Source: Candidatus Omnitrophota bacterium (GTDB taxonomy: Bacteria; Omnitrophota; Gorgyraeia; Zapsychrales; JANLHA01). Taken from it: a DNA stretch of 32,528 nt. Below are positions 1 through 25,658 of this stretch, piece after piece. The notes beneath the pieces were generated by a model, which had not been told where the DNA came from, searched no databases, and worked only from the letters and a program-made list of their open reading frames with translations. The DNA is taken from contig JAGLHE010000072.1 of NCBI GenBank assembly GCA_023143685.1, forward strand, positions 1 to 32,528, given 5' to 3'. How positions within the stretch are numbered: the first letter of the stretch is position 1; the number at the start of each line of letters is the position of its first letter. Position numbers and translations under genes: made by a program.

Positions 1-3000
1 TTCTGGTCCTTCCTCATCTACCTCACTAAAGATCATTGGCAAACTCGGGATCGGAGTTACATTAATAATTACCGGCAAGAACCCTTCAATGTTCATGTTC
101 TGAATCGGCTGCTGCGGTAACGGCAACGGGATACCATTGCCATCACGTTTAATCTGCAAATTCAACATCGCTGAATTAAGGTTGATACCACCAACGTTCT
201 TTACATCAACCTGTGAGGAAGAGGTTTTCTTCAGCCGCCAATCTTCTTCCCCTGCACGAGGAGACAAAGATGGATCCGCGTCCCAATTTTTATTCAATTT
301 GGCTTCAACGCGCGATAATAATTTTTGTGCGCGATCCAGGACAGGGGCCACTTCTGGCCGGATTTTTGTCATCGGTTTGTTCATTTTGTTTATCATTAAT
401 ATGAGGTCATGTCTCCATGAGAGCAATGTCCCCTGCTCTTGAGTTTCTTCTGATGCCACCTTCCCCTCAACTTCCTTAACAAATTTATCATACTCAGATA
501 TTTCAATAGGAGAAGAGCTTAAACCCGCCCGCAATTCCCTAATAAGCGTTTCTGCCTCAAATCCGCGCCAATCATTACCTCTTGTTTCTGAATGTGACAA
601 GTAATCTCCCTTCGTATTATCAATAAAGATAATTGTCGACTGCCCATTCTGCTGAACAACCGTGATTCCCTGCCCACCCTTATCGATACCTCCATCATAT
701 TGAATAACTCGATGTTGCGCGGCTAACGAGGTCATATCTGCCACATTATCATAACTTGGGGTTTCCCTTAAAACACTATCTAACATTACTAACAACTGTT
801 CCTGACGCTGTAATTCTGCAACCGGAGAGGAAGACAGCACAGCAAGTTCCTCAGGGATCAGCATTGGTTGGTGCTTTTCAGTCGCTGCCTGCTTTGCCTG
901 ACGCTTTGCAATGTCGCGTGGATTGTCGTCTGTTCGGTCTCCTGCTTCCCTAAGCGTCCAATCAGCTTTTGTTCCTCTGATGGGAAGCTGTTCGTGCAAG
1001 GTCATTCCTGTCGCCACGTTGTAATAACTAAAAATCCGCTTTTGCCCTAAAATACGTGTTCGCACAACCGGGCTTGATCCGACTTCACTCGCGTGAAAAT
1101 CCAGCCTGTTTAAGACCTCTGACACCCCGGGGGCAATCTCCTCGAGCTCCCTTAAAACATCCTCCGAAGGAAAACTGATACGATTATCCGAATCAATCCA
1201 CACTTTCTCGCCTTCTGCCAGGCCCTTAAGAACATGTCGTGTTGTAAAATGCTCTTCTTCCGGAAGACGGCCTCGCTCATCGTCACGATATTCACTTCTG
1301 AAAAACAACCCGCCTGTCATCGCAACTTCACGGTACGTCAAGTCATCCGTAGAAATGGAAACAAAACTGACCGGTGAAGAAGCGGACTTTATTTTCTCCT
1401 CTCGATATGCAAGAGGACTGCTTGCCGCTGATTTCGTTACTTTTCCTTTTCCATCAATTACAATCCTTACATCTGACAACGACAGTTGCCCATCCTCCGT
1501 TTTAGGGATAAAATACTTATTATGCTCTTTAAAATAGTTTTCATTAAATTTAAACAAATCAAAAAGGCCTCCCGACTTATCAATAATCTGAACTTTTCCT
1601 CTATAATATGGACCGGGGAGAAGCTTTTGCATTTCTCCTAAAGACTGATCCCCTATTCTAACATTGCGGTGATCTGTCAGCCGAGGTAATCCCTCTGGGA
1701 TAAAAAACTCTACATTCCCATTTATGTCTGCATCAAATCCCAAGTTTACCAACAAATCCCACATATCATATTGCACATTAACTTCCCCGTCGACAAAACT
1801 TCCTGGAGTTGCATCTGTTAACACACCTTCAAAAATATTAACCCCCCATTTTTTCTGCTGCATAAAAGTCCATTGATGCAAGGTAAATTTATTAGGCGTA
1901 AACGCCTTAGAACGTATCTCCGGACTAAAATTAAAATGAAAAAGCAATCCATCGTGACCTGTCTCTTTACGGAACTCATCCCTAACATCCTTCAACTCAT
2001 CCATAGTCTTTAAAGCCTTATCTATGTTCATGACAACAGAATAAGCAGCCCCTTCAACAGAAATACCCTCTCTTCCAGACTGCTCATCATATCTTTCTTT
2101 AGGAATAACATCAGGGGAGACAATCTTTAAAAACTGCTCCACACCTATTTTGTTAACAATCTTTTGAAGCAAAGGCTTTAAAATAGTTTCATTAATAAGA
2201 ATTGTATTAGTATTAATCGGTTGAATTCCTTTTCCTCTTCGACCCAAAGACAAGAACAGTTCTCGCTGGCCACTAACCTGTGCTTGCCCTAATTCAATAT
2301 TAACAAATACAACAGAATCCCCCTCTTTCTGTACATGCGGGGCCCCCACTTTTTCATCTCCGATATCGCCAACTTTCCCTATACGTGTTGCAGTAATAAC
2401 CCCTATTGGAAGTTTATCAAGCATCATTTTTCCTACAATCTCTCGGGGGACTTGATTATTGACTCCATCAGCATTCAAAAAGACATTAATACTTGTTCCC
2501 TCCTCGGGCAATTGCTTTTCAACCAAACTCTGCAACTTTATGGAGACAACGGCACCATGACTTCCATTAGCTGTCCATCCATCAGTATAAAATTCTCCGA
2601 TATCAGGATTAACAACAGGATAAGGAAGCAACACCATAGGCTCAACAACTTTGATTCTTTTTCTACCCTTAATGGCTTCTTCCCATGTTCGTTTATCCTC
2701 TTCCGATTTGGAATCATTCACCCTGTCCCAAAAATAAGTTGTGTTATAAAAATTCTCAAGTGATCTCTTGCTATCTTCATTAACTAACTCTTCGATCTTG
2801 ACACTTCCATAAGATAAAGATTGATTGAGTTCACTTAAATACTTTAACTCTAAAACAGCAACAGTTTCTCCCATTATTTTGGGGCTATTCTTCTCATCTC
2901 GACCTTCGACTTCTACCCAGTGAAACAGATCCTGTGATTTTGCAGCTAAAGCTTGCCTTCCTGTGATATGTTGTAAATACTGATTTCTTATTACACTTTC

Positions 3001-5460
3001 TCCAAAACCAGCATTAAAATGAGAAATCGTAAGATCCACCTGTCTGGCTGCTGCAATGTAATCTGTTCGATTTAAAACCTCTTTCTCCACATCAATTATA
3101 TTAAATATTTTCTTCATATCTTCATATTCAAAAGCATCCGCAGGGGTGATATCTTTCTCAATACTTAGAACAGGATTCTCTTGTCCCAACTGAAAAACAA
3201 GAGGGAGGACATAACCTGTCTGTTCGGGAGTATACCCTAAATCTTCTAATTGTTTTTCAAGATATTCTCTAGAACGAAGCACCTCTTTCGTCAACTTAAT
3301 CGGGGAAGATGCGGCTAGCTGATGCGACTGGCCGACTCTGGCTAAAGCTTCCAGGGAAGAAATTTCTTTTTGAACCAACGAATTAAAATAATGTGTATCA
3401 TTTGAATTAAGTGTTGCGAAAGCGATTCTGGCTAACCCGTCTGCAGCATTCGCCCACCCTCTCTCTTTTGCTAACATGTCAAAGGTTGTGTCTTCCTCCT
3501 TTGTGAATTGCACAAAGATTTCAAAAGCTCTCCCGCTAACATCATGGCCTATTTTGGCAGCCATCTCATTTAAATGTACTAACGCCGCGCCAATAGACTC
3601 CCGGCCTTTAACATTTTCCTGGATCAAATCACGAAATGTCCGGCCAGCTAAATTCAGTCCGTTCTGCGTTGCTCTTCCGACCGGGGAGGAAACAGCCGGG
3701 GCAGTGTAAACAAAGTTCTGCAACTCTGAAATTTGTTCATTGAAATCTTTAAAATCTCTGGTATCATTTGCAATCGCAACCGTCAAGTCAACAAAAGTTT
3801 CCTGGCTCACACCTGCTAAAAGAACTCTGCTCAGACTCTCAGACACAGAAGACACATCTCCAGCTACAGATACCAGAATAAAATCCTTCTGCGCGAGCCC
3901 AAGCAAAGGCAAGAAATCTTGTTTTACACTTTTTTCATTCAAAACATTTCTTCCCATTTGGATTTGCCGAAAACTCTCCGGAGTAAAAGAACGCAAAAAA
4001 GACATCGTAACGGCTTCATTAATACTCGATTCATCTTGCCCAAGTTTCGTTTGCAGATCTTTAACAATTTGCCTTCCCTTAACATTTGTACTTAAAAACG
4101 CCTCCATCTCTTGGTAAACACTTTTACCAACCGCGTTTAAATCTTCATGCTTACTCGCTAATTCAACAAAAGTTGCAACAGGGGAAGATGTCTCCACCTT
4201 CGCGGCGGACAGCTGCTTATCACTCGTATTTTCAATCAGGTTCGCCTCCGCGACAACATACCTTGAATCAATACTGTTTTTCTCCATCCCGCGTCGGATT
4301 CTTTGCTGAACACTTACAGGAGAAGAACCAAATCCGCTTCGGCCTCGCACCGTCTTAACCTCTGCCCCATCCCTTTCAAACCCGCCTGAAAAATATTTGC
4401 GCGGAACAACATGCTTTGCCACAGGATCGTAGTCTTCCTTAATGTAATTGTACACACCCTTATTAAACGCCTCAACATACTGGTCATAAATTTTTTGTTT
4501 AACCTGCTTGTCTTCAACATCCACACCCTTAACTTTCGTCTTATCCACATACACCTGGCCTAATAAAGTTTCCTTTAAATTCTGTTTGTACCAGGTTGCC
4601 AAAACCATCGAGTTGTAAATCTGCCTTAAATTCGCGAAATGTGTTCCTGTATTAACCTCTTTTTCAATCTCAGGGATCAAGACTTCACGGATAACCGCTG
4701 ACGAAACCCCGCTTAACGCCTCAGCATCATCTTTATTCACCTTATCTAAACTAAACTCTTTATTCCCTAAATTACTCTGCAACGCCAAATAATCTTCTTC
4801 CAACATGACCTTTAAATGGCTATCCACAACATACGCGCTGCCTTCATATTCGTAAACAAGCGCGTTCTCCGGAACGATCCAGACCTTATTAAAGGTATTA
4901 ACAGGAATATTGGTTGTGCCGAACTGCTCCTGCGCCTTCTTGTAAACACGCGCCCAAAACTCTTTTCCTAAATCATCTTCCGGATAAATTAGAGAAGCCA
5001 TCATCTGCTTCAATATGTAATCCTGAGCAAGCAGGTCGCGCCCCATTTCAGTAACGCTAAAACCTTCCGGAATAATACGTCCCTTTTCGTACGGAGAAAG
5101 GTTGACCCACATGTCTTCATCCGGAACCGTGAGTGAAGCTAAGAAATATTTAATCAGTTTATTGGATTCATCTTTAAGCGCCTCACCCTTCAACTTTGAA
5201 TCCCCTGTATCTACAATAAAATCAAATTGCAAAGGGTTCTGCGGATTAATGGTCAATGCCTTAATCACAGCCGGAGCGTAACCATCACTTAGACGCACCA
5301 TCTCCCCTGGGGGCGGTAAATTCAAAATTGTTTGGGATGTATTTTGTGCGTAAAGCGGGGTGGGAGGCGTTACCATACTAAACATAAAAGTAAACGCGAC
5401 AAACCCGGATAAAATTCTGTAAGGCAACCGGCTTTTTCGTTGTTCAAGATAGTGGACCAT
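1..5460 (-). CDS. Giant secreted modular protein A (C-terminus truncated by window edge); N-terminal signal/TM segment, SSP(V/I/L)-punctuated modules, conserved C-terminal block
   Basis: Not in the ORF track because it runs off the window. Reverse-strand translation from ATG at 5460 reads MVHYLEQRKSRLPYRILSGFVAFTFMFSMVTPPTPLYAQNTSQTILNLPPPGEMVRLSDGYAP... and ends at the edge with ...VGGINLNSAMLNLQIKRDGNGIPLPLPQQPIQNMNIEGFLPVIINVTPIPSLPMIFSEVDEEGPE. Paralogous at both ends to the 5722..9042 ORF. Confidence 0.9.
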   Translation of the reverse strand, partial: MVHYLEQRKSRLPYRILSGFVAFTFMFSMVTPPTPLYAQNTSQTILNLPPPGEMVRLSDGYAPAVIKALTINPQNPLQFDFIVDTGDSKLKGEALKDESNKLIKYFLASLTVPDEDMWVNLSPYEKGRIIPEGFSVTEMGRDLLAQDYILKQMMASLIYPEDDLGKEFWARVYKKAQEQFGTTNIPVNTFNKVWIVPENALVYEYEGSAYVVDSHLKVMLEEDYLALQSNLGNKEFSLDKVNKDDAEALSGVSSAVIREVLIPEIEKEVNTGTHFANLRQIYNSMVLATWYKQNLKETLLGQVYVDKTKVKGVDVEDKQVKQKIYDQYVEAFNKGVYNYIKEDYDPVAKHVVPRKYFSGGFERDGAEVKTVRGRSGFGSSPVSVQQRIRRGMEKNSIDSRYVVAEANLIENTSDKQLSAAKVETSSPVATFVELASKHEDLNAVGKSVYQEMEAFLSTNVKGRQIVKDLQTKLGQDESSINEAVTMSFLRSFTPESFRQIQMGRNVLNEKSVKQDFLPLLGLAQKDFILVSVAGDVSSVSESLSRVLLAGVSQETFVDLTVAIANDTRDFKDFNEQISELQNFVYTAPAVSSPVGRATQNGLNLAGRTFRDLIQENVKGRESIGAALVHLNEMAAKIGHDVSGRAFEIFVQFTKEEDTTFDMLAKERGWANAADGLARIAFATLNSNDTHYFNSLVQKEISSLEALARVGQSHQLAASSPIKLTKEVLRSREYLEKQLEDLGYTPEQTGYVLPLVFQLGQENPVLSIEKDITPADAFEYEDMKKIFNIIDVEKEVLNRTDYIAAARQVDLTISHFNAGFGESVIRNQYLQHITGRQALAAKSQDLFHWVEVEGRDEKNSPKIMGETVAVLELKYLSELNQSLSYGSVKIEELVNEDSKRSLENFYNTTYFWDRVNDSKSEEDKRTWEEAIKGRKRIKVVEPMVLLPYPVVNPDIGEFYTDGWTANGSHGAVVSIKLQSLVEKQLPEEGTSINVFLNADGVNNQVPREIVGKMMLDKLPIGVITATRIGKVGDIGDEKVGAPHVQKEGDSVVFVNIELGQAQVSGQRELFLSLGRRGKGIQPINTNTILINETILKPLLQKIVNKIGVEQFLKIVSPDVIPKERYDEQSGREGISVEGAAYSVVMNIDKALKTMDELKDVRDEFRKETGHDGLLFHFNFSPEIRSKAFTPNKFTLHQWTFMQQKKWGVNIFEGVLTDATPGSFVDGEVNVQYDMWDLLVNLGFDADINGNVEFFIPEGLPRLTDHRNVRIGDQSLGEMQKLLPGPYYRGKVQIIDKSGGLFDLFKFNENYFKEHNKYFIPKTEDGQLSLSDVRIVIDGKGKVTKSAASSPLAYREEKIKSASSPVSFVSISTDDLTYREVAMTGGLFFRSEYRDDERGRLPEEEHFTTRHVLKGLAEGEKVWIDSDNRISFPSEDVLRELEEIAPGVSEVLNRLDFHASEVGSSPVVRTRILGQKRIFSYYNVATGMTLHEQLPIRGTKADWTLREAGDRTDDNPRDIAKRQAKQAATEKHQPMLIPEELAVLSSSPVAELQRQEQLLVMLDSVLRETPSYDNVADMTSLAAQHRVIQYDGGIDKGGQGITVVQQNGQSTIIFIDNTKGDYLSHSETRGNDWRGFEAETLIRELRAGLSSSPIEISEYDKFVKEVEGKVASEETQEQGTLLSWRHDLILMINKMNKPMTKIRPEVAPVLDRAQKLLSRVEAKLNKNWDADPSLSPRAGEEDWRLKKTSSSQVDVKNVGGINLNSAMLNLQIKRDGNGIPLPLPQQPIQNMNIEGFLPVIINVTPIPSLPMIFSEVDEEGPE

Positions 5461-5647
5461 AAACTTCCTCCGTTTAAGTTGTGTAAAGTTTCGTCCTTGT
5501 GTCCTTATGTATTACAATGTATTCAAAAACAGCTTAAAATTTTTTAAGCAATGTACTTCGACTGATCCTGCGTGGTAAGGTAAACCGTAGATAGAAATAC
5601 CTACGTACATAAAATATACCATACAAGCGCTAAAAAAACAAGTCGGA

Positions 5648-5680
5648 GACGCAAGGTGTTGCAAACAAACAACTTGCGTC
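5648..5680 (-). terminator. Putative intrinsic terminator downstream of giant gene B
   Basis: Perfect 8-bp inverted repeat GACGCAAG...CTTGCGTC. Read on the minus strand it is followed a few nt later by TTGTTTTTTT; located between the two giant genes. Confidence 0.5.
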
Positions 5681-5721
5681 CTACAAAAAAACCGTCCCTC
5701 CTGCCCGCTGAACGTAGCACG

Positions 5722-8700
5722 CTACCAGTCCTTATCTCTCAATTGCGCTCTCAAATCAACCGGCTCCATCCCTTTATTAAAACTCAATTCTTCCGGCGCC
5801 TCTTCATCACCCATGCCTAACAACATCGGCAAACTCGGGATTGGAGTTACATTAATAATAATCGGCAAAAATCCTTCAATCTGCATATTCTGTATCGGCT
5901 GTTGCAGTACCGGCAATGGTACACCTTTGCCATCACGTTTAATTTGCAAATCCAAAAACGCGGGGTCTAAATTAATACCACCGACGACGTCTGGGGTCTG
6001 GTTGCTGGCAAGCTTGGCATTGCGCGCACCATCAACCGGTGAAGACGAAGAGAGCATCCTGGCAGCAGCAATCTCTTTGAGTATTTCTTCTTCTGACTTT
6101 CTTTGCTCCCCTTCTGACTCCCTTGGCCTCCTGTGAAGTTCACTAACAAATTTTTTATGTTCATCATGTGTAAGCCCTGCCTCAACCATCATTTTAAAAA
6201 CATCCACATCTTCCACGTCAGTATCTATTTGTTCTCTTAAGTGCCTGATAAACTCTTCTCCGGGAGTACCCAATAATTTCAATATCCCGGCTACATCCTG
6301 TTTATCAAGGCTGGTTCCATCTACAATAGCCTTTAATATCTTTGCATGTAATTCCTTAAAATACCTCAGCGCCATCCATTCTCTGTGCGGGATGTAACTG
6401 ACACCTAAAGCCTTTCGGGCAGCGCTAACCATTGTGCTGCCTTTATGCAAATCTTCCGTCGACGCGCCAACAAAATAATAACCTGCCTCACCGATCATAG
6501 AGATCACAATCTCTTTTTCTTTTTCATCTAACAGACTATTTATCTTCTTCCTTAACTCATTTAAACCTGCATCACTATTTCCAACCCATTTATACCGCAC
6601 TGCTAATATGTTTTTGTTAATAGCGCCTGGCATAGGCCCGTCATAAACATCCAAATTCAAATGTTTGCTTATTTCTGATACAAAAGCTTTCATCCCCGGC
6701 AGCTCAAGAGAATCCTTTTCACGACGGTCATACGACCCAAAACGAAGAAACTTCTTAATGCCCAATCCTGAACCTTTAACCTCAACTAAACCTGTTCGCT
6801 CATCCAGCTCCTCTCTTATTTTATCCAAAGCACCCATCGCCTCTCCAGGCAAAAAGCCCGTGCCATCAATAGTTATCCTTCGATTATCTATTGGTGACGA
6901 GGAGGCAGATATTATTGCCTCTTTCATCAAGTCACTTTCCGTTGATTGCAACTCTGCCTTTAAGTTGTTCAGTTCTTGCCTTATTTCAGGCAAACCTGCT
7001 CTTTCTTCATTATTTTGAAGAAGCCCTTCCAGTCTCTCTATTTCTGTTTGTCCCACACGAATTTTACCCCTCAGGCTTACCATCGCACTCTTTATCTGTT
7101 CAATCTTTCTTCCCTTCCCATCGCTTACCGGCGAGGAGGAGACGTTCTCTTCCTCCGTTAACAAAGCAACAATATCTTCTCCCTTTAAAGAGGCCTCCAT
7201 ATTAAGTTCTTTGAGAAACTGTTCAGTAGACACAGCAGACCAATCTCCCCATCTCTCTAAACCCCAAGAATGACGCCCATCAGCACTATCCAAAAATACT
7301 CTTATGCCTCCATCTCCCCACGAGTCTACCGCAACCATAAATTTCGCCTTCGCATACTTTGTAACATAGGCTTTCGTTTGGGCAGTAGTATGTGAGTCCA
7401 CCAGAGAACCTTTCCCCAAAAAGTGTACAAGGCTATCTTCCCGCACGTCTTTTGCATCTAAAGATTTCTTTAACAATTCATCCACTTTTGCTTGCAAGCT
7501 CAGAATAAGAAGCTTTGTGCTATTTGCCGATTCGTCATAAGAAAAACCGGACTCCGCCGCATGGTCAAGAATTTGCTCATGTATCAATTCTGACTCAACG
7601 CGAACCTTCAACAATTCTTTCCTACTCTTTAAGTTATCCAAATTCTTTTCTTTCCTCTCCATCTGTTCATAAATCTCTTTAAAATCAAGCACCGGCGAGG
7701 AGGTGTTGCGGGCGGCGGTGAGTTCTTCTGCCATCTTTGTCAATTCTTCTACAGGAGAAGAGTTGACACCCAGCTCTGTTAACGCCGCGTTAATGCTGAA
7801 AATATCTGACTCCTCACTCTCTGGCTGTATTCCTTTCGCAACCCGTTGTTGAACCGATAACGGCGAAGAGGCCAGGTTTTCATCTTTCACAGCCTTAACT
7901 TCTTCAGGAGCGATAACTCCGCCGGAGAAATATTTTCTCGGGATAATTTCCTGCTTTTGTGTGTCGTAGTCTTCTTTAATGTAATTGTAAACTCCCTGAT
8001 TAAACGCTTTGACGTACTGGTCATAAATCTTCTGTTTAACCTGCTTATCCTCAACATCCACACCCTTAACCTTATTTTTATCCGCGTACACCTGGCCTAA
8101 CAAACTTTGCTTCAAATTCTGTTTGTACCAAATCGCCAAAATCATCGAGTTATAAATCTGTCTTAAATTCGCGAAATTTTTGCCTTCGTTGACTTCCCGT
8201 TCAATTTCAGGGATGATAATTTCTTTAATGAGTTCAGAAGACAGGGAACTGTTGACAGAAGACAGATTTTTTGATTTTTTTTCTGTTTTCTGTCCTCTGT
8301 TTTCTGTCTTCTGTTCTACCAAGTAATCCTGCTCAAGCATCACCTTCAAATGACGATCAACAACAAACGCGCTGCTATCCTTTTCATAAACAAGCGCATT
8401 TTCAGGCACAATCCAAACCTTATTAAAAGTGTTCATCGGGATTTCACTCGTCCCAAACTCTGCCTTAGCTCTTTTATGCACACGATGCCAAAACTCTTTA
8501 CCCAAATCATTTTCCGGATAAATCAAAGAGGCGGTCAGCTGCTTTAAAATGTAATCCTGCGCTAAAAGGTCTCGTCCCATCTCAGTAACACCAAACGCTT
8601 CAGGGACAATACGGCCTTCTTCATACGGAGATAAATTAACCCACAAATCCTTTTCCGGAACTGTTAAGGACGCCATAAAATATTTAATCAGCTTTTGTGA

Positions 8701-8994
8701 TTCTTTTTCCAAATCATGGCCGGTAAGTTTTGAGTCGCCGGTATCAACAATAAAGTCAAACTCAAGCGGATTTTCAGGATGAATAGTCAGCCCCTTGATG
8801 ATAGCAGGCGCGTACCCTTCACTGACATGCACCATCTCACCTGGAATGGGGAGGTTAAAAATTGTTTGGGTCCCCTCGCTCGCGTAAAGTACTGCAGGCG
8901 GCATGACTAAACTAAAAATAAACGTAAACGCAACAAACGCAGAAAACACCCGGCAATACAACCGGCCTTGCTTTTTTTGGATGGTATGGATCAT
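5722..8994 (-). CDS. Giant secreted modular protein B, paralogue of protein A; start re-assigned to ATG at 8994 (track start 9042)
   Basis: Long ORF. MIHTIQKKQGRLYCRVFSAFVAFTFIFSLVMPPAVLYAS is a signal-like N-terminus aligned with protein A, and CAGGAG lies just upstream of the 8994 ATG. Internal SSPL/SSPV/SSSPV/SSSPI/SSSSPV motifs; C-terminus VGGINLDPAFLDLQIKRDGKGVPLPVLQQPIQNMQIEGFLPIIINVTPIPSLPMLLG. Confidence 0.92.
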   Translation of the reverse strand: MIHTIQKKQGRLYCRVFSAFVAFTFIFSLVMPPAVLYASEGTQTIFNLPIPGEMVHVSEGYAPAIIKGLTIHPENPLEFDFIVDTGDSKLTGHDLEKESQKLIKYFMASLTVPEKDLWVNLSPYEEGRIVPEAFGVTEMGRDLLAQDYILKQLTASLIYPENDLGKEFWHRVHKRAKAEFGTSEIPMNTFNKVWIVPENALVYEKDSSAFVVDRHLKVMLEQDYLVEQKTENRGQKTEKKSKNLSSVNSSLSSELIKEIIIPEIEREVNEGKNFANLRQIYNSMILAIWYKQNLKQSLLGQVYADKNKVKGVDVEDKQVKQKIYDQYVKAFNQGVYNYIKEDYDTQKQEIIPRKYFSGGVIAPEEVKAVKDENLASSPLSVQQRVAKGIQPESEESDIFSINAALTELGVNSSPVEELTKMAEELTAARNTSSPVLDFKEIYEQMERKEKNLDNLKSRKELLKVRVESELIHEQILDHAAESGFSYDESANSTKLLILSLQAKVDELLKKSLDAKDVREDSLVHFLGKGSLVDSHTTAQTKAYVTKYAKAKFMVAVDSWGDGGIRVFLDSADGRHSWGLERWGDWSAVSTEQFLKELNMEASLKGEDIVALLTEEENVSSSPVSDGKGRKIEQIKSAMVSLRGKIRVGQTEIERLEGLLQNNEERAGLPEIRQELNNLKAELQSTESDLMKEAIISASSSPIDNRRITIDGTGFLPGEAMGALDKIREELDERTGLVEVKGSGLGIKKFLRFGSYDRREKDSLELPGMKAFVSEISKHLNLDVYDGPMPGAINKNILAVRYKWVGNSDAGLNELRKKINSLLDEKEKEIVISMIGEAGYYFVGASTEDLHKGSTMVSAARKALGVSYIPHREWMALRYFKELHAKILKAIVDGTSLDKQDVAGILKLLGTPGEEFIRHLREQIDTDVEDVDVFKMMVEAGLTHDEHKKFVSELHRRPRESEGEQRKSEEEILKEIAAARMLSSSSPVDGARNAKLASNQTPDVVGGINLDPAFLDLQIKRDGKGVPLPVLQQPIQNMQIEGFLPIIINVTPIPSLPMLLGMGDEEAPEELSFNKGMEPVDLRAQLRDKDW
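8229..8320. repeat. Low-complexity inverted repeat (CTGTTTTCTGTC.. / GACAGAAGACAG..) inside giant gene B
   Basis: gaagacagggaactgttgacagaagacaga-tttttt...-ctgttttctgtcctctgttttctgtcttctgt; encodes the linker EQKTENRGQKTEKKSKNLSSVNSSLSSE, replaced by an unrelated linker in protein A. Confidence 0.6.
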
Positions 8995-9219
8995 ATTCTC
9001 TCCTGATTTTTTGCACAAACAGCGCAAGCCATTCAAAAGCATTAAATGACAACCGCCTTAAAAAATATACTTGGTTCGTGACACTACTTTGGAAGACAAA
9101 ACGTCGGAAAACAACAAGTAAATACCTTTTAATTACTTAGGGAAAAATATAACATATTACTAGAGGAAAAACAAGGCAGAGCCGTAAGATATTGAAGATA
9201 AACGACTTAGACCTTCGTG

Positions 9220-9699
9220 TCAACTCTCAATCAATCTTTGAGCACTGGTATCAAGATGAAATTCAACAACATCCCCTGCCTCAAGCCCGAATTCCTTACT
9301 TTTTCCGGCATTCAGCTCTAAAACGTACATCGCGTCTTGACTTGGAACATAACTTGGACAAGGATCCTTCTGGCAAGGGGGGACATTTGCTTCGATATGA
9401 ATAATCCGGCGAGCATAATCCAGCCAAATAATATCTAGCGGGATCAAAGTTTCTTTCATCCAAAACGAATGTTTTCGGCTATCTGAAAAAAGGAACAACA
9501 TGCCACGTTCCGTGTCCAAATATTCGCGATTCTGCAAACCTCGCGCTCGTTCTTCCTGCGTCTGAGCTAATTCCACTTCAATACACTGACCTTTAAAACA
9601 AACCTGGGTGACAGGCCGGGAACCTGTGCAACCAAGGAGAAAAATTGAAAGAAAAAGAAGAATCTGGTATTTGGTATCTGGCATTTTATCTGTGCTCAT
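9220..9699 (-). CDS. DUF192 family lipoprotein/secreted protein
   Basis: VELAQTQEERARGLQNREYLDTERGMLFLF..HSFWMKETLIPLDIIWLD...YVLELNAG is typical of DUF192; lipobox-like LLGCTG. Confidence 0.85.
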   Translation of the reverse strand: MSTDKMPDTKYQILLFLSIFLLGCTGSRPVTQVCFKGQCIEVELAQTQEERARGLQNREYLDTERGMLFLFSDSRKHSFWMKETLIPLDIIWLDYARRIIHIEANVPPCQKDPCPSYVPSQDAMYVLELNAGKSKEFGLEAGDVVEFHLDTSAQRLIES

Positions 9700-9708
9700 C
9701 TGCGTTTC
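9685..9708. repeat. Copy of dispersed tttatctgtgctcatctgcgttt repeat overlapping the DUF192 start codon
   Basis: Same ttatctgtgctcatctgcgttt string as at 10484..; both genes start MSTDK from it. Confidence 0.6.
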
Positions 9709-10499
9709 TACAGGTCCTGCCCCGTTAAATTCAAATAATCCTTAAATTCCAGTTCGCCTGTAATTTCCTGGTTCACAATTGCTTTACGCTCTTCAATATG
9801 CGGGTGCGTACGAAAGTATCCAAGCTGCCGTAACGGCGCTTTTTCTTGTTCCGCCTTAAGAACGTTAAGCATCCCGATTATCTCTTTCGGATCATACCCT
9901 GCTTTTTGAAGATACTTCACAGCTAATTTATCCGCCTGAAACTCATCTTGACGGGAATACGAAAAGAACAGCGTTGAAAAAGCAGCACTGACACCTTTGA
10001 CTACCTCCCCTTCCCCGGAAGCAACAGCAGCTGCTTGCATCAGCGAATAGCCATAAACGCTTTGCATTTTTTTGATCCCATGCCGCGCGGTAATATGAGC
10101 GACCTCGTGAGCAATAACGCCGGCCAACTGCTCATCGTTCTCTACGCGATCAATCAATCCTTTAAAAATATAAATGTATCCTCCAGGCAAACTCACGGCG
10201 TTGACCTTATCCTCATCAATAACCTTGATCAAATAAACAATATTTTTTCGGTCACACACAGCAACAATACGGCTTAAAATCTTTTCTACCCGTTCGTTGA
10301 TATCAATGTCTGTACTGATTTTATACTTTTCTTCGACTTGTTTAGCAACAGAATCGCCGATTCTCACTTCCTTTTCCGTGCCGTAAAACAGAGTTTCTTC
10401 ACGCCCGGTAGCCAGGTTAAACTCAGTCGCACATCCGGCGAGAAAAAAAAGAAGAAATAAAAAAAAGATATGGCATCTGGTGTTTTTATCTGTGCTCAT
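9708..10499 (-). CDS. M48 family zinc metalloprotease, lipoprotein
   Basis: HEVAHITARHGIKKM (HExxH), downstream DEFQADKLAVKYL; lipobox-like FLAGCA. Confidence 0.9.
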   Translation of the reverse strand: MSTDKNTRCHIFFLFLLFFLAGCATEFNLATGREETLFYGTEKEVRIGDSVAKQVEEKYKISTDIDINERVEKILSRIVAVCDRKNIVYLIKVIDEDKVNAVSLPGGYIYIFKGLIDRVENDEQLAGVIAHEVAHITARHGIKKMQSVYGYSLMQAAAVASGEGEVVKGVSAAFSTLFFSYSRQDEFQADKLAVKYLQKAGYDPKEIIGMLNVLKAEQEKAPLRQLGYFRTHPHIEERKAIVNQEITGELEFKDYLNLTGQDL

Positions 10500-14871: not shown

Positions 14872-14964
14872 AGAAAGTTCGCCTTTTAATTTTGCAAGCT
14901 CACGTCTTCTTTAGCTGACGTGTAGGAACGTATGTTTGTCTGTTTTATACTTTCCTATACTGTA
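14872..14964 (-). repeat. ~95-bp palindromic element, intergenic (degenerate) copy
   Basis: agaaagttcgccttttaattttgcaagctcacgtcttctttagctgacgtgtaggaacgtatgtttgtctgttttatactttcctatactgtaa; homologous to 23007..23101 and 24393..24486. Confidence 0.9.
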
Positions 14965-14986
14965 AAAAAAATTAGAGATAGCACAG

Positions 14987-20511: not shown

Positions 20512-23117
20512 TCATCACCTCCTTGCGTTAAGCATATTTTTCTTTTAGAAGCAAAATAACAAATGCCAGAGAACATTACTATTATTGCCACAACAATAAA
20601 TGTTGAAATCTTCCATCCCACAACATTGTATCCGAACAAAACATACGCGACCGCAAAAGCAACAAACAGCGCGATCAACATACATTTACCACAGCTGCAG
20701 GTAACAGTGTTTTGAGATTCCCCCAAAACACTTGAAGGCTTAATAGAAATTATCGCCGGCAATATAAATAGAGTAGCTACCGCGGAAACTGCCATAATAA
20801 AAAACATAAAGAATCCGACTGTTTTATATGGTACCAACGATGCAGCTAAAAGCGGTAAAAATCCTATAGCCACAACCAGGGCATTTCGTATAATCGCCCG
20901 TCCGGGGCCGGAGAACATTTCTTGCGCTGTCTGTTCCCAATTCCCCTTAACATGATTTACCTCAACAGCTCTTTGTATAAAGTGAATGGCAAAATCAACT
21001 GATAATCCCAAAGTGAGGGCCGATAAAACAGCAACAGGCATATCGTAATCTTTTCCAAAAAATCCAAGCAAACTATATATAAACAAAATTGTTATAGTTA
21101 GCGGAATCATAGAAATAAGCGCTTTAACCGGAGATCTGAATAAAAACAACATCATAAAAAGAACAATGACAAAACTACCCAGAAAATTTTTAAGCATCCC
21201 TACTACCATATTATTCTGCCATACAACATTAATATAGGTAAGCCCTGCCCAATTAAAAGAAACCTTAGACGGCGGAGGATTCTTTTTTATATAATCTTCA
21301 GTAATCTCAACGACTTTGCTCATAAATTTATTATCACCGCTTTTAAGCTGCAGCCACAAAACAGTCTTTGAATAATCCGGAGTAACAAGATGCCAAAGGT
21401 CATCGGGCTTATGCGAATTCTCAAATGACATAAGAGACTGCGCTACTGCTTGCCTTGTATTTGGTACAACATTATTTACTTTATCTCCGCCTAACAATTC
21501 GTAATATACCTTTTTTACTATATCTGCCAACGATGTTGTTTTTCCGACTAAATCAGTATCCGCAAGCATTATTTGCAAATCTTCAATATATCTAAGCATT
21601 TCCGGTTCAATAAAAACTTCCTTTCTTTTATCTTGTGCTTCCATCACAAGATACGCTTCATACGTTCCGGAGAAATGCTTATTCAAAATACGATCTGCTA
21701 CTCTGATAGAATGATTTTTATTAAACCACCGTACAGGATTATCATTAACTTCTATTCTGCTTATGCCATAGACAGATAAAATTACTGCAAAAACAGAAAC
21801 ACCCAAAACCCACTTATATTTCCTGGTAACAACATTCTTAAAAGAACACAGCACTCTATCCAACAAGTGCCCTTCATCTTTTTTTACCAACCCGAAATTA
21901 TTAAATATTTTATTATTTACTAACATGACATAAGCGGGAATAAAGGAAATGGTAAGTAACCAGGCGACCATAACTCCGACTGCTACAAATACACCGAAAA
22001 CCTGAACCGGAGGAATAGGAGAAAATGACAAAGAGAAAAATCCAACCGCAGACGTCAAAGAAGTAAAGAGCATCGGGCTGAAAAGTTCATCAATAACAAA
22101 AAGCATAGTTTTTCTTCGGTCGTTATATACTTTATATTTATCGAAAAACTCGCTTAAGATATGCACAGAATCTAAAACAGCAATAGGCATTAGAAATATC
22201 GGTATCATTGACGTCATTATGTGAACCGGAAATCCAAAACCTATCAACAACCCCATGGTAATAAGGACTGTTGAAATAGCGACCAGCATTGGCGCTACAA
22301 TTAAAGCGGCAGATTTGAAGAACATCCACATTAATAAAAAAATGACAAGCCCGGCAAGAGGCGCGGAAATAGCCATCTGTTTAAACATCTCAACGCCGAA
22401 CTGGTCATTCGCTACAGGCAATCCTGTTATGTGATATTCTTCTTCTCCTGGATATTTCTGAATTATTTCGCGTATCGATTGCGCAACTTCATAACTGATA
22501 TCTTTTCGTTCAATGGGAATATATATAGCAACAGCTTTCCCATTCAGGGAAACCACGCTTCCCTGAAACATAGGATGGTCCTGAGCTTCATCCCTTATTC
22601 GTAAAGCTTCAGGCTTTGTTTCAGGAGGTTCTTCCATCAACCAATTAAACTTAACCTCTCCTATACTTCCCTGCTCAATATTATCTTTGGTTGATAAAGC
22701 GATTATTTCTCTGGATATAACTCCATCAACCTGCTCTATTTCCCTGGTAATATTGTAAATTTTGGACAGGGTGTCTACATTAAATACTCCGTCAGAGTTT
22801 TTATCGTTTACTACACCCAACACTACTAAATCATATAAAGCAAATTCCTTTTTAGTGTCACTGTGAAAAACCCTGACAGGCGCGTTTTCAGGAAGCATGT
22901 TTTCAGGGTCAGTATCAACTTTTATTTTCGTGTACTGACTTAACGCCAGCAAAACTATAATTGCTGTAATAAAAACAACTGATTTTGGATGATTAATAGA
23001 GTACCTAGAAAGTTCGCCTTTCATTTTTGACCGGCTCACATCTTCTATGCGGCCGTGTAGGAAAGTATGGTTGTCTGTTTTATACTTTCCTATACTGTGA
23101 ATAAATTTCTTTAACAT
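20508..23117 (-). CDS. RND/MMPL family transporter (carries in-frame palindromic element at its N-terminus)
   Basis: VDTDPENMLPENAPVRV, 12-TM RND pattern, SALTLGLSVDFAIHF. Confidence 0.9.
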   Translation of the reverse strand: MLKKFIHSIGKYKTDNHTFLHGRIEDVSRSKMKGELSRYSINHPKSVVFITAIIVLLALSQYTKIKVDTDPENMLPENAPVRVFHSDTKKEFALYDLVVLGVVNDKNSDGVFNVDTLSKIYNITREIEQVDGVISREIIALSTKDNIEQGSIGEVKFNWLMEEPPETKPEALRIRDEAQDHPMFQGSVVSLNGKAVAIYIPIERKDISYEVAQSIREIIQKYPGEEEYHITGLPVANDQFGVEMFKQMAISAPLAGLVIFLLMWMFFKSAALIVAPMLVAISTVLITMGLLIGFGFPVHIMTSMIPIFLMPIAVLDSVHILSEFFDKYKVYNDRRKTMLFVIDELFSPMLFTSLTSAVGFFSLSFSPIPPVQVFGVFVAVGVMVAWLLTISFIPAYVMLVNNKIFNNFGLVKKDEGHLLDRVLCSFKNVVTRKYKWVLGVSVFAVILSVYGISRIEVNDNPVRWFNKNHSIRVADRILNKHFSGTYEAYLVMEAQDKRKEVFIEPEMLRYIEDLQIMLADTDLVGKTTSLADIVKKVYYELLGGDKVNNVVPNTRQAVAQSLMSFENSHKPDDLWHLVTPDYSKTVLWLQLKSGDNKFMSKVVEITEDYIKKNPPPSKVSFNWAGLTYINVVWQNNMVVGMLKNFLGSFVIVLFMMLFLFRSPVKALISMIPLTITILFIYSLLGFFGKDYDMPVAVLSALTLGLSVDFAIHFIQRAVEVNHVKGNWEQTAQEMFSGPGRAIIRNALVVAIGFLPLLAASLVPYKTVGFFMFFIMAVSAVATLFILPAIISIKPSSVLGESQNTVTCSCGKCMLIALFVAFAVAYVLFGYNVVGWKISTFIVVAIIVMFSGICYFASKRKICLTQGGDE
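23007..23101 (-). repeat. ~95-bp palindromic element, in-frame copy in RND gene
   Basis: Encodes HSIGKYKTDNHTFLHGRIEDVSRSKMKGELS; near-identical to 24393..24486; contains perfect IR TAGGAAAGTAT/ATACTTTCCTA. Confidence 0.95.
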
Positions 23118-23948: not shown

Positions 23949-25658
23949 TTATCGCTCACACCAAACCAGCCACTTACCGGTATCGAAATCTATCTTAACT
24001 TGCGCCAAATGCGGGAATGTATCACGCAGAAGAAAAAGGCTCTTGCCTGCATCACTCCTTAAAACAAACACAGCCTTACGCTGTGTGTCACGCAATATTT
24101 TCTTGAGCCTGTCAATCTCATCCTGATTCTGTAACGGATCAACATAAACAACGCTTTGGTCTTTATGGCCGTACAGAGCCTTGATGTAATAAAGCCCCCA
24201 GTTCAAAACAACAAATACGTATGGCCCATTAAACCTCTTGTTTAAATACGCGTTCAACCTGACGTTTGAATGATGGTTCATTTCCTTGTGCGGCAAATAC
24301 GGCAGCCCCGAATACAATTTAACGTTTACAACAAGAAAAACAACCGCCAACAAAAGGATCAATTTATCTCTCCCGCATTTTGCAAAAACACAAGAAAGTT
24401 CGCCTTTCATCTTTGACCGGCTCACATCTTCTATGCGGCCGTGTAGGAAAGTATGGTTGTCTATTTTATACTTTCCTATACTGTGAAAAATCCCAAACAA
24501 CAAAAACGGTAAACTCAAAACCACATGATGCATGGCCCAGACTTTTGGAGAAAAACTCATTATAAAAATTGTCAAAACAAATGCTGATACCCCCGCGACA
24601 ATTCCCCCTACCGGTTCTTTTTTAAGAATCCTCTTCACAAGACCAGCCACAACCAACAACACAACAACAGCCACAAACAAAATACCCCAAATTGTCCACC
24701 CCCTGCTCTCGGGCATCTCAAAAATGTAATGGGCCGCTCTCATCGGATCCATAAAATACGGCGCGATATTTTCTGTGAAATTCCTAAAAGCCTCCTCCAT
24801 GTTCGTCCAGGCAATCCGCGGCGATTGCCGAATAACATAACCATATTTGATCCCCCACCGACTTGATGCGTTGAATAACATCCATCCCAACCCGCCGGCA
24901 ACGGACGCGAGCAACACTCCCTGCGCCAGAAAAAATCTTTTATTACCTTTGGATAATAACGCGGAACGATGAACATAAACTTCATACAGCATTAGGACAA
25001 AGATTCCAGGCAACATAAACAAATACGCCACCTTTATCCAAAAACAAAAAAACAATACCAGGCCAATCCATAAAGGGTAAAGCCAGCTCATCCGGCTTTC
25101 TTTTAACGCCATCATCCACGCTCGTGTTAAACAACAAACCAAAAATACCGAAGTTAACTGAATCGCCGCAACCCCTGTATCCACAACATGCTGAAACGCG
25201 TATGGCATAAAAATAAGCAACCCAAAAAAAGATACAAAAAAATTAATTTTAAAAAGACGGCGGAGACACAAGGCTTGAACCATGAGAAACAGCAATCCCA
25301 AAAATCGCGCGGAATATGGAGAAGGCCACACTTTAAAAAGGGGGAAATAAATCAATCCCGGCGCGCTACCGACATAATCAAACGATCTTAAGGGCCAATA
25401 ACATTCTGAGAAAATCGCCAAGTCATGCACATGACATGCTTCCCGAAACGTGTTTGCTTTATTTAAAGGATAATATAAACAACTTAAGGCATGGTATTGG
25501 ATAAACTCGTCCATGCTAAACGGGACATAGTTAGAGAAGGCAAAAACAAAACCCACAGCAATCGTAACTACTAAAACAATCTGACAAATAATTTTCCAGG
25601 CGGAACCCTGGCCCTTGGGCGTTAGAAAGAAATTTTTTAAAACTTTTTTAAAAGACAT
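23949..25658 (-). CDS. GT-C type membrane glycosyltransferase (GT39/ArnT-like), with in-frame palindromic element
   Basis: Multi-TM protein with early acidic motif FSMDEFIQYHAL; C-terminal soluble part VVLNWGLYYIKALYGHKDQSVVYVDP. Confidence 0.65.
   Translation of the reverse strand: MSFKKVLKNFFLTPKGQGSAWKIICQIVLVVTIAVGFVFAFSNYVPFSMDEFIQYHALSCLYYPLNKANTFREACHVHDLAIFSECYWPLRSFDYVGSAPGLIYFPLFKVWPSPYSARFLGLLFLMVQALCLRRLFKINFFVSFFGLLIFMPYAFQHVVDTGVAAIQLTSVFLVCCLTRAWMMALKESRMSWLYPLWIGLVLFFCFWIKVAYLFMLPGIFVLMLYEVYVHRSALLSKGNKRFFLAQGVLLASVAGGLGWMLFNASSRWGIKYGYVIRQSPRIAWTNMEEAFRNFTENIAPYFMDPMRAAHYIFEMPESRGWTIWGILFVAVVVLLVVAGLVKRILKKEPVGGIVAGVSAFVLTIFIMSFSPKVWAMHHVVLSLPFLLFGIFHSIGKYKIDNHTFLHGRIEDVSRSKMKGELSCVFAKCGRDKLILLLAVVFLVVNVKLYSGLPYLPHKEMNHHSNVRLNAYLNKRFNGPYVFVVLNWGLYYIKALYGHKDQSVVYVDPLQNQDEIDRLKKILRDTQRKAVFVLRSDAGKSLFLLRDTFPHLAQVKIDFDTGKWLVWCER
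24393..24486 (-). repeat. ~95-bp palindromic element, in-frame copy in glycosyltransferase gene
   Basis: Encodes HSIGKYKIDNHTFLHGRIEDVSRSKMKGELS; perfect 11-bp IR arms at 24444-24454 and 24468-24478. Confidence 0.95.

Follow-up and report, generated by a model that had tools for sequence, protein, structure and literature searches.

Short, genome-specific peptide tags separate the modules of a family of putative exported polyproteins in Omnitrophota

Results

Two tandem paralogues built on the same plan

The window, that is, the whole stretch of 32,528 nucleotides analysed here, is an entire contig (C299) of an Omnitrophota genome of 2.55 Mb in 328 contigs. Two long open reading frames (ORFs), which encode proteins A and B, lie in tandem on its reverse strand, as do all of their features given below, and are paralogues of each other. 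Protein A (1..5460; 1820 aa) leaves the end of the contig just past its conserved C-terminal tail, and protein B (5722..9042; 1106 aa) is complete. Both show the plan common to their family: a signal peptide, an N-terminal domain of about 350 residues, variable modules and a C-terminal tail of about 60 residues. Alignments place the signal peptide-like start and conserved N-domain at 4369..5460 in A (..FMFSMVTPPTPLYA↓Q) and at 7897..9006 in B, and family comparison places the conserved C-tail at 1..195 in A (GGINLN...LPVIINVTPIP) and at 5791..5985 in B.

Between these two ends, a motif scan located a recurrent tetrapeptide tag. In protein A it occurs as SSPV directly after the N-domain (4315..4326), then as SSPV at 4177..4188 and 3679..3690, SSPI at 3298..3309, before the module described next, SSPL at 1411..1422, SSPV at 1369..1380, 1066..1077 and 820..831, and SSPI at 505..516; a tenth, degenerate form, SSSQV, stands just before the C-tail (208..222). 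In protein B the series opens with SSPL directly after the N-domain (7858..7869), continues with SSPV at 7750..7761, 7690..7701 and 7126..7137 and SSPI at 6889..6900, and closes with SSPV just before the C-tail (6034..6045). In both proteins, the residue after SSP is always V, I or L. All 15 SSP[VIL] motifs and the degenerate SSSQV reported in a preliminary description of this DNA were recovered, about 10 bases away from where it had placed them, and SSP[VL]SVQQR is indeed the first motif of both proteins.

Searches of Pfam and NCBIfam, and phmmer against the PDB, gave nothing useful with A and B alone. However, the inter-tag segment of A at 1423..3297 contains a region (1774..3180) with homologues in seven other genomes, six of which were aligned with the module of A; the resulting profile, the only search on A or B that worked, matched a UDP-glucose pyrophosphorylase in the PDB (E=8.9e-12). 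PF01704 was found in six of the seven members of this set, and in A itself it gave no match. As judged from this profile, the region is a divergent UDP-glucose-pyrophosphorylase-like module. The C-tails of A and B had no relevant Pfam or NCBIfam match, known C-terminal sorting domains included. The N-domain was modelled with moderate confidence (mean pLDDT 71.6), and with this model it could be assigned neither to a known fold (best Foldseek hit against the PDB, E 0.067, probability 0.08) nor, by Pfam or by fold, to the proteases.

Two other elements of the contig were recorded. First, positions 9220-10499, adjoining B, hold a small gene that reads as DUF192-like and an M48 BepA/LoiP-like lipoprotein metalloprotease; the latter is, by position only, a possible candidate for processing, and its homologues lie near family genes in few loci only. 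Second, an interspersed repeat of 98 bp occurs at 14872-14969, 23007-23104 and 24393-24490 and in at least 40 copies in the genome, with 80-100% identity. Two of the copies in the window fall within ORFs, which read through them in frame (HSIGKYKTDNHTFLHGRIEDVSRSKMKGELS), a behaviour like that of the Rickettsia palindromic elements.

A large family within Omnitrophota

Omnitrophota is a phylum of tiny, uncultured bacteria. Searches with the N-domain and the C-tail gave about ten family members in the genome of the window, and a scan of GTDB genomes returned at least 481 related stretches; of the 80 that were retained, nearly all come from genomes with the title Omnitrophota or Omnitrophica, Ca. 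Aceula and Ca. Zapsychrus among them, and a few from generic or differently titled metagenome-assembled genomes. The N-domain was detected in at least 138 of 384 drawn genomes of the phylum, a lower bound as few candidates were scored per genome; among these are 59 of the 61 listed genomes of the same order. When all candidates were scored, two genomes gave 27 matches each, some of them fragments. The C-tail accompanies the N-domain: 135 of 169 ORFs with a C-tail also have an N-domain, and the rest are mostly fragments or cut by the end of the locus. From these matches, A and B are best placed in a large family specific to this phylum.

What lies between the N-domain and the C-tail is shared hardly at all from one protein to another. 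For the passengers of A and B, almost no homologues were seen in the family proteins compared, while the UDP-glucose-pyrophosphorylase-like module does recur elsewhere. A decayed copy (G000:C212:3563-4190; loci L010, L011 and L040), in which short ORFs hold pieces of the N-domain and a C-tail, lies upstream of an intact member and suggests birth-and-death turnover. Another member, of 4123 aa and cut at the start of its contig (L041:2-12370; C37), has helical repeats as well as regions that read as AAA-type and VWA-like.

Tags are enriched, conserved as peptides and placed outside domains

In the genome of the window, SSP[VIL] occurs 46 times across 11 family ORFs, some of which end at contig ends. 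Shuffling of each protein at constant composition (500 rounds) yielded 0.79 motifs on average and never more than 5, and SSPV alone was observed 31 times against 1.67 by a first-order Markov estimate. Outside the family the motif is near chance level: among 354 ORFs, from about 411 kb of the 2.55-Mb genome, only four proteins contain it, with five motifs in total and in unrelated contexts. The 46 copies are spelled by 42 distinct 12-mers, whose serine codons belong to both the TCN and the AGY families, and therefore it is the peptide, rather than the DNA, that is under selection.

As for position, tags are found after the N-domain, between modules and before the C-tail. Among the 16 proteins with Pfam matches, none of 120 tags lies inside a Pfam envelope, these envelopes being best stretches only, whereas 18.7 were expected and the minimum in 20,000 random placements was 6. 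The regions that flank the tags contain fewer order-promoting residues, and more A, S, T and P. Thus, the proposal of the preliminary description that the motif separates modules withstands the two outcomes set in advance to count against it, since the motif exceeds its composition-based expectation (46 against 0.79) and does not fall at random within domains (0/120).

Many modules resemble whole enzymes of central metabolism

Single ORFs of the family hold domains of GAPDH, PGK, enolase, TIM, FBPase, GH77 and LpxC, among other Pfam domains, so that several independently folding units share one chain, as in a polyprotein; between the units stands a conserved short linker, as it does in polyproteins. 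The clearest order is seen in one exported-type ORF of Ca. Zapsychrus exili (L115:10001-18973), in which GAPDH, PGK and enolase follow one another and precede an aldolase-like region. Its GAPDH (residues 843-1143) is followed by the tag DQAMV at 1186, PGK (1201-1625) by a tag at 1638, and enolase (1657-2059) by a tag at 2094, after which come a region like class II aldolase, a tag at 2897 and the C-tail. The PGK module aligns to residues 3-396 of a standalone PGK frame that is 402 residues long.

Other members show the same arrangement with different contents. In L237, TIM lies between tags at 1209 and 1496 and is followed by GAPDH and a tag at 1897; in L119, a 4-alpha-glucanotransferase lies between tags at 1364 and 1886; L133 has PRTase-CE modules with a tag about every 300 aa; and L065 combines malate synthase, a phosphopantetheine site and isocitrate lyase. 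The genome of the window itself has one member with LpxC and two methyltransferase regions, and another with a histidine-kinase-type ATPase and methyltransferases. Many modules thus appear to be enzymes of central metabolism, often whole.

Standalone PGK and TIM genes are present in 10/10 genomes tested, and a standalone LpxC gene is present in the genome of the window. Where tested, this rules out the polyprotein as the sole copy of these essential enzymes, and the PGK, TIM and LpxC modules are therefore extra, divergent copies. As to their active sites, sequence reading indicates that GAPDH modules keep SCTTN, with the active-site cysteine, and the following histidine, and that the motifs of the 4-alpha-glucanotransferase module appear intact; the TIM module of L237 is without the usual active-site lysine.

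The tag follows the genome and not the paralogue

Across 182 non-redundant family proteins, genomes with SSP[VIL] are almost without DxAM, genomes with DxAM are almost without SSP[VIL], and many genomes have neither. In many genomes, the pattern ranked first by de novo discovery was D-x-A-M-[LTVM]-[ASTG], and the discovery also gave minor tags, less certain as they come from few proteins each: TNAAVL (G077), V-x-ASP[VA] (G176), SS[AS][VI] (G122 and G283), DxAVL (G378) and KDGG (G205).

The two main tags occupy equivalent places. First, SSP[VIL] occurs within 60 aa after the N-domain in 22/32 SSP-class proteins but in 1/49 of the DxAM class, and within 60 aa before the C-tail in 13/22 and 0/31, respectively. 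Second, DxAM follows the N-domain in 23/49 DxAM-class proteins against 2/32 of the SSP class, and precedes the C-tail in 14/31 against 0/22. Since the same motif counts set the genome classes, this comparison is partly circular, although position did not enter the class definition; and about a third to a half of the linkers flanking the N-domain or the C-tail are without an exact tag, with degenerate forms at best.

Families f1 and f4 each include genomes of both tag kinds, and SSP[VIL] is also present in the distant families f23, f29 and f31. Paralogues from the genome of the window are dispersed in the N-domain tree, where proteins of DxAM genomes surround them, and still bear SSP[VIL]. On this FastTree tree, which is weak in its deep branches, tag type needs 13 changes. 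Among DxAM-class proteins, the variable flanking residues also depend on the genome (permutation p<=0.0002 for each of three positions, with kinship among paralogues left in). The tag tracks the genome and not the paralogue. In one SSP-class ORF of 1059 aa (L066), both tag types stand side by side at residue 713, as ASSPISDNAML, which may have arisen by chance or may be left over from a tag change.

Discussion

A tag that is near-uniform within a genome yet different between lineages suggests a dedicated enzyme that recognises or cuts it, and a trans-acting reader is likewise suggested by the many independent modules and paralogues of one genome that share the tag. We consider it reasonably probable that A and B are exported polyproteins whose tags are recognised, and most likely cut, by a lineage-specific trans-acting endoprotease, a reading drawn from sequence comparison. 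Under this model the chain would run from signal peptide and N-domain through alternating tags and modules to a last tag and the C-tail. Each tag would be a separator read by the trans-acting factor, which would most likely be an endoprotease that frees the modules, in many cases complete enzymes, from the N-domain and the C-tail, during or after the export that the signal-like N-terminus predicts. The specificity of the factor would differ by lineage, and all tags of a genome would then differ together, being SSP[VIL] here and DxAM[LTV] and others elsewhere. Of the factors that could fill this role, a protease is the simplest, because excision explains tags at module ends, at the N-domain and at the C-tail, and because the tags have no common modifiable residue. 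No protease recurred as a neighbour of family genes among the loci examined, and a Pfam scan of 20 family proteins listed no protease domain within the chain.

The preliminary description had offered three functions for the motif, of which proteolytic processing is now the leading one. Modification or attachment has become less likely, because the chemistry of the tag changes completely between lineages. In its broader form, this alternative states that the tags are docking or attachment sites. Their lineage-specific reader would be a binding protein, a transpeptidase or a modifying enzyme, and the multi-enzyme chains, left uncut, would be arranged by it or anchored to a surface or scaffold. 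This alternative also accounts for the genome-wide uniformity and lineage specificity of the tags and for their location outside domains. However, tags at both ends of modules, including those between the N-domain and the first module and between the last module and the C-tail, suit excision better; and since SSP[VIL], DxAM, TNAAVL and KDGG share no modifiable residue, one chemistry for all is unlikely. We regard docking as unlikely overall, though deserving of consideration.

The composition of the tag flanks, poor in order-promoting residues and rich in A, S, T and P, would also fit structural linkers, such as helix caps or flexible hinges, favoured by composition and read by no factor; helix starts often have Ser, Asp or Pro close by. 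However, one exact four-residue pattern far in excess of expectation, and a different exact pattern in related genomes despite the same kinds of modules, are difficult to reconcile with this idea, as structure alone predicts neither near mutual exclusion by genome nor genome-specific flanking residues, and we hold it to be quite improbable. The third of the earlier proposals, that tags are seams of module shuffling at the DNA level, by site-specific or homologous recombination, agrees with the turnover of modules among members, where passengers of A and B are almost unique and the UDP-glucose-pyrophosphorylase-like module recurs in other genomes; it is disfavoured by codon diversity, as 42 spellings in 46 copies and both serine codon families leave no DNA identity for recombination, and is very improbable. 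An action of the tags in translation (internal start, skipping or pausing), which the ATG codon within DxAM might recall, is the least probable of all, as SSP[VIL] has no ATG, most fourth codons are not usual start codons, and KDGG and TNAAVL have no such feature.

The proposed proteolytic release has counterparts in other systems. In viral polyproteins, functional units are freed at short sites that differ between lineages by a protease that is itself encoded; in the 20 Omnitrophota family proteins scanned, no protease was recognised. Closest in working are the light-harvesting polyproteins of Euglena and dinoflagellates, where several folded units in one imported chain are joined by short conserved linkers, a decapeptide or SPLR, that are cut by a specific protease (PMC3480386). 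These are eukaryotic and repeat one protein family, whereas the Omnitrophota chains would combine unrelated enzymes, a fixed N-domain and C-tail, and a tag that varies by lineage, with cutting predicted from sequence. In Mycoplasma hyopneumoniae, the accessible part of one account describes endoproteolysis of the P97/P102 surface paralogues at a recurrent short motif in disordered regions; this motif, S/T-X-F↓X-D/E, differs from SSP[VIL], DxAM and the other tags, and that part of the account describes no tag-flanked enzyme modules (PMC4772806).

Within Omnitrophota, giant ORFs of more than 20 kb, encoding large, poorly annotated multidomain proteins, are known yet unexplained (PMC10066038), and gigantic proteins with several enzyme domains have been mentioned (PMC12419801). 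In the portions of these reports available to us, the giant ORFs are defined by that length, and there are no tags, no frame of N-domain and C-tail and no polyprotein reading (PMC10066038, PMC12419801). The ORFs of proteins A (5.5 kb or more) and B (3.3 kb) are below that length, and the longest relative among those read, cut by the end of its locus, reaches 6160 aa. A literature search for Omnitrophota polyproteins or tags, with few subscription journals and preprints covered, found no description. What our analysis adds to the preliminary description is the lineage specificity of the tag and the finding that modules often resemble whole metabolic enzymes.

More tentatively, and at somewhat less than even chances, the family may represent a phylum-wide export-and-cut system, in which one lineage-specific protease of evolving specificity would free whole captured enzymes, including runs of glycolytic steps, outside the cytoplasm or into prey or host cells, and in which the tags of a genome would have switched in concert several times. 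The grammar of N-domain, tag, module, tag and C-tail provides a simple description of many unexplained long proteins of Omnitrophota, which are widespread and probably predatory or symbiotic. It also predicts one recognising factor per genome, whose specificity could be read from dozens of natural sites. If the model is true, enzymes of central metabolism would have been captured into an exported chain, and the phylum would hold a natural series of altered tag specificities.
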